Assembly: GCA_030156575.1 (NCBI GenBank)
Contig: JASGMG010000002.1
Coordinates: 1 to 48,065, forward strand
Source: Patescibacteria group bacterium
Lineage (GTDB): Bacteria > Patescibacteriota > Saccharimonadia > Saccharimonadales > Saccharimonadaceae
DNA: 48,065 bases
Reading direction: 5' to 3'
Shown here: positions 29,778 through 45,091 of the stretch, one piece after another
Layout: every line of letters starts with the position of its first letter
How positions within the stretch are numbered: position 1 is the first letter of the stretch
The notes under the pieces: generated by a model
What the model was told of the DNA's origin: nothing
Database searches by the model: none
What the model saw: the letters and a program-made list of their open reading frames with translations, nothing else
Made by a program: the position numbers and the translations under genes

Positions 29778-30362
29778 TCACAATAATGAACGAAGTATCT
29801 CAACTGAATCTTCACTAAATACATACGAATCAATGCCAATTGAAATAGCTAAATCAATATTTTTCTCTGAATCATCAAAATATAAACAATCTTCAGGCTT
29901 TAATCCGTTATTTTTAAAAATAAGTTCAAATGCATGAACATCCGGTTTAATGAAACCAGTTTCCCAAGAATAATAAATACTTTCAAATAAAGTCGTCAGA
30001 AAATGAAGATTTTCAGAATAATATTTAGCTCGTTCGCTAAAATTGTTAGACATTATTATTAATTTATAACCTTTTCTTTTGAGCTCTTTCGCTAAATTAA
30101 CAAGTTCTATGTTTTCTCTCTCAGCATTAAACCAGTAATCTAAAAATTCCATTTCAGAAAAGTTTATTTTCCATTTACTAAGATGTGGTTTCCATAAGTC
30201 ATAAACACTAGCTGAGTTTGGGCGTCTAACCCTACTCATGATATTGTTTAATACTGGCATAAAATCATCAGGCTTAACACCAAAATCTTTGTTAAATCGA
30301 TCACTTAAAAGAGGACTTATAATAAATACACCATTAAGATCAAAGATTATAGTTTTCTTCAT
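29778..30362 (-). CDS. HAD-superfamily hydrolase inside the rRNA locus
   Basis: The protein shows HAD motifs: TIIFDLNGVF (motif I; the second Asp of DxD is Asn, as in some HAD-IA members), LIIMSNN (motif II), TGFIKPDVHAFELIF (motif III Lys) and CLYFDDSEKNIDLA (motif IV). This suggests a small-molecule phosphatase of unknown substrate. The track starts at 30440 inside the tRNA-Ile gene, which is artefactual. ATG 30362 gives 194 aa with the normal HAD N-terminus. A TATAAT box ends 6 nt before this ATG. The gene lies between tRNA-Ile and 23S in the same orientation, an unusual position. Confidence 0.88.
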   Translation of the reverse strand: MKKTIIFDLNGVFIISPLLSDRFNKDFGVKPDDFMPVLNNIMSRVRRPNSASVYDLWKPHLSKWKINFSEMEFLDYWFNAERENIELVNLAKELKRKGYKLIIMSNNFSERAKYYSENLHFLTTLFESIYYSWETGFIKPDVHAFELIFKNNGLKPEDCLYFDDSEKNIDLAISIGIDSYVFSEDSVEILRSLL

Positions 30363-30368
30363 ATGATG

Positions 30369-30374
30369 ATTATA
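30369..30374 (-). promoter_or_regulatory. -10 box of the HAD gene
   Basis: TATAAT on the minus strand ends 6 nt before the HAD ATG. No good -35 is visible and there is no Shine-Dalgarno, so the gene probably starts as a leaderless mRNA from within the rRNA spacer. Confidence 0.45.
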
Positions 30375-30401
30375 ACTGAAAAATAAAAAATACTTCACAA
30401 T

Positions 30402-30478
30402 TGGTGGGCGATGAGGGACTTGAACCTCCGACCTCGTCATTATCAGTGACGCGCTCTAACCAGCTGAGCTAATCGCCC
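30402..30478 (-). tRNA. tRNA-Ile (GAT)
   Basis: On the minus strand GGGCGAT pairs with ATCGCCC, followed by A and an encoded CCA. The D arm (TAGCTCAGCTGGTTAGAGC), an anticodon loop CTGATAA and the T loop GTTCAAG are all present. The anticodon is GAT. Confidence 0.97.
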
Positions 30479-30519
30479 ACATTTGTCAAATATTTTATAT
30501 AATATAAAAAAACAGCTTT

Positions 30520-30555
30520 TGGTGGAGTAGTACAGGCTTTAACCTGTGCTACCCC
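30520..30555 (-). other. 36-nt tRNA-Ala-like minihelix between the two tRNAs
   Basis: On the minus strand GGGGTAG pairs with CTACTCC and is followed by ACCA. Inside are one C-A mismatch, a 5-bp stem (ACAGG/CCTGT) and a 6-nt loop (TTAAAG). This equals an acceptor stem of 7 bp stacked on a T-arm-like stem, with G3:U70, A73 and CCA, the identity set of alanyl-tRNA synthetase. The first four pairs equal those of the adjacent tRNA-Ala, while positions 5-7 differ but still pair. It may be a shrunken tRNA-Ala copy, a processing element or a functional small RNA. Confidence 0.55.
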
Positions 30556-30558
30556 ATA

Positions 30559-30635
30559 TGGTGGAGCGTCGGGGACTCGAACCCCGGACCCCCTGCTTGC
30601 AAAGCAGGTGCTCTAGCCAACTGAGCTAACGCCCC
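30559..30635 (-). tRNA. tRNA-Ala (TGC)
   Basis: On the minus strand GGGGCGT pairs with ACGCTCC (including the G3:U70 identity pair), followed by ACCA. D arm TAGCTCAGTTGG, anticodon loop TTTGCAA and T loop GTTCGAG are present. The anticodon is TGC. Confidence 0.97.
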
Positions 30636-30655
30636 ATATGCACATGGACTAATTT

Positions 30656-30684
30656 AGTTTATATCAAAATACATCCTACTGCAA
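30656..30684 (-). promoter_or_regulatory. Possible promoter of tRNA-Ala/tRNA-Ile
   Basis: TTGCAG and TAAACT are 17 nt apart on the minus strand, 20 nt before tRNA-Ala and just after the terminator that follows 16S. The -10 is imperfect. Confidence 0.4.
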
Positions 30685-30711
30685 GAGGTAAATACGAATA
30701 GTATCATATAC

Positions 30712-30745
30712 GAAATAAAAAATACCCCTAGCTTTCGCTAGGGGC
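30712..30745 (-). terminator. Terminator-like hairpin between 16S and tRNA-Ala
   Basis: On the minus strand GCCCCTAGC GAAA GCTAGGGG is followed by TATTTTTTATTT: a perfect 8-bp GC-rich stem with a GNRA loop and a T-rich tail. It lies downstream of the 16S processing stem and upstream of tRNA-Ala, so it may end or attenuate 16S transcription. Confidence 0.7.
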
Positions 30746-30756
30746 ATTTTATTTTA

Positions 30757-30776
30757 ACAATTTAGTTGTGCAATCA
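30757..30776 (-). repeat. 16S processing stem, 3' arm
   Basis: ACAATTTAGTTGTGCAATCA is the exact 20-nt reverse complement of 32454-32473 on the other side of 16S. The pair forms the precursor stem expected for RNase III processing. Confidence 0.9.
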
Positions 30777-30923
30777 TATCATCAAATTTATATTAAGATT
30801 TTTTCGAACTTAGTCTTGTCCTTGATAAATCAAGAACTGCATTATTATGTAAGCTCAACACAATAACAAGACCGACCTAGCTTCAGCAATAGATTACTCA
30901 TATTGCTGGCATAACTCTCCCTA

Positions 30924-32399
<1,476 letters not shown>

Positions 32400-32453
32400 A
32401 AAAAACTATAGCTAATAAATTAACTTAGTTTATAACTCATATAAACTGACGAT

Positions 32454-44672: not shown

Positions 44673-45091
44673 TGGTGGAGCTGCGGGGAATCGCACCCCG
44701 GTCCGAAAAGTAACCAATTATTTATCTACAAGTTTAGTTTATCTTATTGATTAACGACTTTTAATATTCAAAGTAAACAGAAATTTATATTAATTGTCGC
44801 GCAATATGTTTTCCCTCAGTAACGTTGCTGCCCGCTAAATTGGTAAGCGACATAGTTCTATAACACCACACCACTCAATATGTCGCCTAAGTAGTGTAAT
44901 GGCAAGGATTAAATCCGAGCTGTTGCAAGAACTGGAGCATTAAAGGCACTAGCTAAGCTAGATGCTGTTTCTGCTACAAAGTTTCCTACTTTTTTTGCAA
45001 ATGTTGCAATTAAAATAATATACGTAACGAGTATCTTCGACTTGCAAAATAATCTGTTAAATTCCCTTCGTCGAAAGCTAAAATCAGCCCC
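44673..45091 (-). ncRNA. ssrA: Transfer-messenger RNA
   Basis: tmRNA rescues stalled ribosomes and tags the nascent chain. The 5' GGGGCTGATTTTAGC and the 3' GATTCCCCGCAGCTCCACCA pair as a tRNA-Ala-like acceptor (GGGGCTG/CAGCTCC with G3:U70, A73 and CCA). The tag frame is open from about nt 85 or 94 and reads AKKVGNFVAETASSLA followed by SAFNAPVLATARI and a TAA. The tag is thus about 29-32 residues and lacks the usual ALAA end. The length is 419 nt. Confidence 0.93.

Follow-up and report, generated by a model that had tools for sequence, protein, structure and literature searches.

The locus and its hairpin

The stretch of DNA analysed here (the window) comprised 48,065 nucleotides (nt) of contig JASGMG010000002.1, assembly GCA_030156575.1, a 0.68-Mb draft genome of a Saccharibacterium. 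Between the genes for tRNA-Ala and tRNA-Ile, and on the same strand as both, lies a 36-nt element, here called the minihelix, in which a 32-nt hairpin is followed by ACCA (Table 1). Read along the minus strand from 30555 to 30520, its letters are GGGGTAG-C-ACAGG-TTAAAG-CCTGT-A-CTACTCC-A-CCA, and its acceptor end comprises G1-C72, G2-C71, G3:U70, A73 and CCA. Sequence and position were exactly as given in a preliminary description made from the letters alone, which had also remarked that CATATG precedes both the minihelix and tRNA-Ala; CATATGGGG was present at the start of both.

Folding of 38 nt (including two flanking bases) gave −19.8 kcal/mol (z = −5.3); none of 200 shuffled sequences was as stable. 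The predicted fold consists of a 7-base-pair (bp) stem, a C.A mismatch, and a stem of 5-6 bp with a small closing loop; relatives carry a small internal loop or bulge at the site of the mismatch. In the window copy the loop TTAAAG folds as a UAAA tetraloop plus an extra U-G pair, so there is no T-loop. A stacked, T-arm-like stem of 5 bp with a 6-nt loop had been described; the second stem stood, but its direct stacking was interrupted by the C.A mismatch and its loop was a tetraloop rather than T-like. In all, the hairpin has 12 pairs and one small internal loop, making 13-14 layers, and both stems are backed by covariation.

ARAGORN and the Rfam tRNA model (RF00005) made no call on the hairpin, which is a single helix lacking the D, anticodon and T arms of the cloverleaf. 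Rfam returned no credible match for it even at E <= 5. Features of transfer-messenger RNA (tmRNA) were also absent from the 36-nt element, which holds neither a tag reading frame nor an mRNA-like domain.

Table 1. Features of the window discussed in the text.
Feature	Position	Strand	Evidence
Predicted minihelix RNA, 36 nt (32-nt hairpin + ACCA)	30520..30555	minus	sequence, fold, family conservation, covariation
5' acceptor strand GGGGTAG, positions 1-7 (G3 = 30553)	30549..30555	minus	pairs 1-3 fixed 52/52, 5-7 covary
3' acceptor strand CTACTCC, positions 66-72 (U70 = 30526)	30524..30530	minus	G3:U70 in 64/64 distinct sequences
Discriminator A73 and complete encoded CCA (CCA = 30522-30520)	30520..30523	minus	sequence
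Distal stem ACAGG/CCTGT, capping loop TTAAAG	30532..30547	minus	fold; compensatory changes in relatives
tRNA-Ala (TGC), 3 nt upstream of minihelix	30559..30635	minus	ARAGORN, Rfam RF00005
tRNA-Ile (GAT), 41 nt downstream of minihelix	30402..30478	minus	ARAGORN, Rfam RF00005
Intrinsic-terminator-like hairpin between 16S rRNA and tRNA-Ala	30719..30750	minus	terminator scan
Promoter-like stretch, weak (TTGCAG...TATAAA), 5' of tRNA-Ala	30658..30684	minus	by eye; promoter scan made no call
tmRNA, the window's other alanine-accepting RNA	44673..45091	minus	Rfam RF00023, sequence

Conservation and covariation

Homologues were collected with three covariance models (R1, R2 and R3). For the class-wide count only matches of 38-42 nt were taken; matches of 80-81 nt were tRNA-Ala genes where inspected and were left out. 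When 52 distinct sequences were aligned, 96.9% of cells were paired. Two-sided changes occurred in 7 of the 12 pairs, with 88 compensatory cells against 24.7 in shuffles. The covariation score was reached by 0 of 500 shuffles and collapsed in slid controls; an earlier alignment of 12 sequences gave an agreeing picture. The preliminary description had held that a functional RNA should be present in close relatives, should show compensatory changes in its stem and should keep both its pairing and G3:U70. All of this was found, with the exception of one degenerate copy described below.

Pairs 1-3 were invariant in 52/52 rows, G2-C71 included, and pair 4 changed once. Among 64 distinct sequences G3:U70 was present in 64/64, while pairs 5 and 6 were of several pair types and the inner stem varied freely. 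In the distal stem, one G-U pair had become G-C in 10/51 rows (41:10); since this pair drifts to G-C, a fixed G-U at 3:70 would be unexpected under neutral drift. ACCA followed every family member in one scan and the members recovered in a scan by tRNA homology, both of which required it; aligned loci that had been retrieved through tRNA homology showed it too. Members were 30-34 nt long plus ACCA, with a near-constant 13-14 stacked layers and a mid-stem irregularity. Most loops among distinct sequences were UUCG (23), GAAA (19) or UUAC (7); others occurred, none of them a T-loop. No obvious antisense-RNA seed was apparent, because ACCA is the only single strand that is both exposed and constrained.

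The minihelix was compared with tRNA-Ala at 50 shared loci. Pairs 1-4 agreed in 49/50 (one of the 50 tRNA-Ala calls is itself aberrant), and at most one of pairs 5-7 was identical, as had been noted for the window. As pairs 5-7 differ at shared loci, the minihelix was not copied recently from the adjacent tRNA-Ala, although it may have originated from an acceptor arm in ancient times.

Occurrence among genomes

Among 199 genomes sampled from the window's own family, the covariance models found the minihelix in about 60, as a single copy in each; in a class-wide sample they found it in 49/245 genomes. In a phylum-wide sample of 333 genomes, no genome from outside the class had it at E <= 0.001. 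At least four families beyond the main one have it (f9, L201; f22, L020; f31, L193 and L194; f40, L196), and f2 (L202) is perhaps another. Named carriers are nearly all Candidatus Saccharibacteria and include strain TM7i (CP075337.1, L175), whose genome is complete and which therefore offers a directly testable system. Two loci labelled Chloroflexi bacterium and Tidjanibacter sp. (L143, L146) held a minihelix of Saccharibacteria type and are probably mis-binned contigs.

A second sample was obtained by tRNA homology with a 261-base query of the tRNA region and scored regardless of position 3:70; because the query contained the hairpin of the window, this sample was driven mainly, not wholly, by tRNAs. 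The same hairpin, with differing stem sequences, lay between tRNA-Ala and tRNA-Ile in relatives. It was found within 300 nt downstream of tRNA-Ala in 13/26 loci, 12 with G3:U70 and one degenerate, a frequency above chance; a 14th match, in L023, was unrelated.

Stand-alone copies

Among 76 distinct contexts, tRNA-Ala lay upstream of the minihelix in 50 and tRNA-Ile in 12; the rest had no tRNA found within 250 nt upstream. The minihelix is a free-standing unit in one genus (g36) and one distant family (f9). All 13 of these stand-alone copies had a TATAAT-like hexamer precisely 11 nt upstream of G1; its mean match was 5.46/6, whereas no other spacing exceeded 3.3. A terminator-like hairpin lay just downstream of most. 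The base at -1 was U in 69/76 contexts, which would fit 5' trimming of the transcript by RNase P.

Downstream of stand-alone g36 copies (L135-L176) a short protein of the MDKDKIIAAIKEKVDLP.. type and a KGG-repeat small protein recurred, probably as local synteny. Conserved neighbours of stand-alone copies, named by eye as ROK kinase, phosphoglucomutase-like and KGG-type small proteins, also look like local synteny and pointed to no function.

Alanyl-tRNA synthetase

The alanyl-tRNA synthetase (AlaRS) of the window genome is 628 amino acids (aa) long and ends after the tRNA_SAD editing domain, without C-Ala, the module that grips the tRNA elbow (PMC10036535). Enzymes of the clade span 628-640 aa, and 9/10 genomes looked at (L181-L190) had one of about 630 aa, with similar lengths in genomes with and without a minihelix. 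Pfam searches of two clade enzymes found only the catalytic and tRNA_SAD domains and no C-Ala. G3:U70 is the main determinant for AlaRS, and its replacement abolishes charging; the peptide that reads it has been identified (PMC6451123). This peptide is kept in the clade as YDTYG, YDTFG or QDTYG, and reads YDTYG in the window genome.

In that genome G1-C72, G2-C71, G3:U70, G4-C69 and A73 are common to tRNA-Ala, tmRNA and the minihelix. The two ends of the tmRNA read GGGGCUG/CAGCUCC-ACCA, and pairs 1-4 are identical in all three RNAs. A viral AlaRS without C-Ala robustly charges an acceptor-stem microhelix (PMC10036535). Given this precedent, the absence of C-Ala, the retained YDTYG and the shared acceptor end, the minihelix would be charged with alanine by the shortened enzyme of the clade, and it is very probably an AlaRS substrate.

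Proposed function

The sequence evidence favours a dedicated minihelix gene whose product is charged by AlaRS and does not decode, and which belongs to an RNA family conserved in Saccharibacteria; we assign this interpretation a probability of about 0.75. The compensatory changes, the invariant G3:U70 and ACCA and the stand-alone genes lend strong support, at the level of sequence, to the earlier proposal of a non-decoding small RNA that can carry alanine. These single-copy genes probably represent a natural class of anticodon-less aminoacyl-acceptor RNAs, which would take alanine through G3:U70 alone and be used outside codon-directed translation, for example to supply alanine to transferases acting on the cell wall or elsewhere.

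Lacking an anticodon, the Ala-minihelix would be excluded from decoding. EF-Tu contacts the T stem of tRNA at pairs 49-65 and 51-63 (PMC4052509). These pairs correspond to layers close to the mid-stem irregularity of the minihelix, so weak binding by EF-Tu, and escape from it, are plausible. Alanine would then most likely be donated to a tRNA-dependent transferase, for which the FemABX type is the best candidate. Such enzymes use alanine from Ala-tRNA, and G2-C71, invariant in the minihelix, is essential for FemX (PMC4052509). FemABX (PF02388) matches were found in 131/139 good genomes of the family, often several in each. That FemABX is the main consumer is proposed tentatively, as the leading candidate, with an AlaRS decoy or sensor next. 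Lipid aminoacylation of the MprF type was rejected as a consumer, as 23 genomes with the minihelix gave no PF09924 match above the Pfam cut-off. Proteins of the FemABX type are strikingly numerous for genomes of 0.7-1.1 Mb, with up to 13 matched stretches per genome.

Several observations weigh against the charged, non-decoding minihelix and its supposed consumer. FemABX matches were present in 22/23 genomes with the minihelix and in 22/24 without it, and this co-occurrence is uninformative because FemABX is nearly universal; one genome (G099) has an intact minihelix and no FemABX detected. Many near-complete genomes (e.g. G010, G014, G078) have no detectable copy, so the minihelix is dispensable. 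A degenerate minihelix after tRNA-Ala in G007 (L015, 1587-1626) has U1.C72 and A3:U70 and is the sole copy found without G3:U70; alanine identity can therefore decay. In genus g36 the peptide that reads G3:U70 begins with Gln, not Tyr. The covariance models themselves contain G3:U70 and so bias the collection somewhat towards it, but the bias is limited, as the G007 copy was still recovered with pairs 1 and 3 lost.

Alternative explanations

An AlaRS decoy or sensor is possible, though not likely. Here the minihelix would be bound and perhaps charged with no downstream acceptor, buffering AlaRS or alanine and tuning the supply of Ala-tRNA. The AlaRS identity elements are the sole invariant part of the RNA, it is usually found right after tRNA-Ala (50/76 contexts), and it persists in G099. 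However, the retained CCA and A73 exceed what binding alone would need, and in several genera the minihelix is unlinked from tRNA-Ala.

Use on the ribosome is unlikely. The Ala-minihelix would act as a peptidyl acceptor that needs no codon, on ribosomes that have stalled or on free 50S subunits, and so add a C-terminal alanine. The peptidyl-transferase centre needs only an acceptor end, and alanine is the residue of both tmRNA rescue and bacterial ribosome-associated quality control. Against this, the window already encodes tmRNA, and no NFACT/RqcH (PF05833) match above the Pfam cut-off was found in 29 genomes, on which ground RqcH-type alanine tailing was also rejected.

It is improbable that the hairpin is a processing element of the tRNA/rRNA precursor, i.e. 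an RNase P or exonuclease signal for tRNA-Ala or tRNA-Ile with no RNA of its own. Its usual position a few nt after tRNA-Ala and the frequent U at -1 would suit such a role, but in one genus and a distant family the element forms free-standing units that carry a -10 box and, in most cases, a terminator-like hairpin, and some relatives lack the hairpin between the same tRNAs. G3:U70 is not known to play a part in RNase P processing. A processing stem was rejected as the main role because stand-alone genes exist.

An intrinsic terminator or attenuator is very improbable. The hairpin is stable and GC-rich, and in two loci (L100, L176) a T-run directly follows ACCA with no other hairpin seen nearby. 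The window and most relatives, however, have no direct T-run and continue into tRNA-Ile or tRNA-Val; a terminator scan of the window made no call at the minihelix, where ACCA is followed by the downstream tRNA. Most stand-alone copies are followed by separate terminator-like hairpins, and termination needs neither an invariant G:U nor ACCA.

The preliminary description had also suggested a tRNA copy without its D and anticodon arms. A tandem tRNA-Ala duplicate in decay, with the T arm gone as well, would account for the shared pairs 1-4, the CATATG before G1 in both and the adjacent position, but was ruled out by compensatory changes and class-wide conservation over many genera and several families, by pairs 5-7 that are independent of the neighbouring tRNA-Ala, by the tetraloop, and by G3:U70 and ACCA that are undecayed save in G007.

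Relation to known systems

Laboratory work has used minihelices since 1989 to model the 'operational RNA code' and the origins of tRNA. The synthetic tRNA-Ala minihelix (Francklyn and Schimmel 1989, cited in PMC9976931) is likewise a hairpin of about 35 nt with an acceptor helix, a second short stem, G3:U70, A73 and CCA. It is, however, a construct cut from tRNA-Ala and retains the T-loop, whereas the element described here is encoded as a gene in the genome, closes with a tetraloop, is irregular in mid-stem and differs in the sequence of pairs 5-7. tRNA-Ala (RF00005) shares with it pairs 1-4, A73, CCA and in all likelihood the synthetase, but the minihelix has no D, anticodon or T arm, reads no codon and is 36 rather than 77 nt long. 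tmRNA (RF00023) is also a non-standard alanine-accepting RNA and has the same acceptor end in the window genome; unlike it, the minihelix lacks a tag frame and pseudoknots and is more than 10 times shorter.

A parallel to the proposed role is found in Staphylococcus aureus, whose non-proteinogenic tRNA-Gly is set aside as an aminoacyl RNA for the Fem-type transferases FemXAB and is altered in its EF-Tu contact region (PMC4052509). That RNA is a full cloverleaf carrying glycine; the role of the minihelix is inferred. Viral tRNA-like structures and armless mitochondrial tRNAs of nematodes (PMC9976931, PMC7609411) likewise imitate or reduce a tRNA while offering an end that can be charged, but the former sit inside larger RNAs and the latter keep the anticodon arm and decode. 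The passages searched in these reviews, on tRNA identity and unusual natural tRNAs, mention no natural minihelix gene, and no natural or Saccharibacteria minihelix gene was found in the open-access full-text literature. The predicted minihelix RNA family appears to be new. If the proposed function is correct, acceptor-only aminoacylation would be used in living cells, with minihelix genes kept by selection on G3:U70, and a large group of host-dependent bacteria would have an unrecognised pathway that consumes or senses alanine.

Other features of the locus

The terminator-like hairpin between 16S rRNA and tRNA-Ala suggests that the tRNA-Ala/minihelix/tRNA-Ile unit is transcribed apart from 16S. 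Stretches related to the promoter-like one in Table 1 (CTTGCGA..TAGAAT) were seen by eye before tRNA-Ala in relatives. Within 29778-32401 of the window, the space between the 16S and 23S genes holds the terminator-like hairpin, the unit of tRNAs and minihelix, and a reading frame for a HAD-like hydrolase (29778-30440, minus strand), the real start of which is probably internal.

At four loci (L016, L021, L022, L066) partial 5' halves of tRNA-Ile and structured, intron-looking inserts adjoin an intact tRNA-Ile; Rfam found no group I intron. Many relatives carry, 3' of tRNA-Ala, inverted copies of its CCACCA end (L021, L057, L062, L063, L065, L070, L073, L082, L089, L092), e.g. ACCAGAGT..ACTCTGGT..ACCAGAGT in L063. 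These copies form a trailer hairpin that would mask the CCA end and that sometimes lies within an insert, up to about 200 nt long, ahead of the minihelix.
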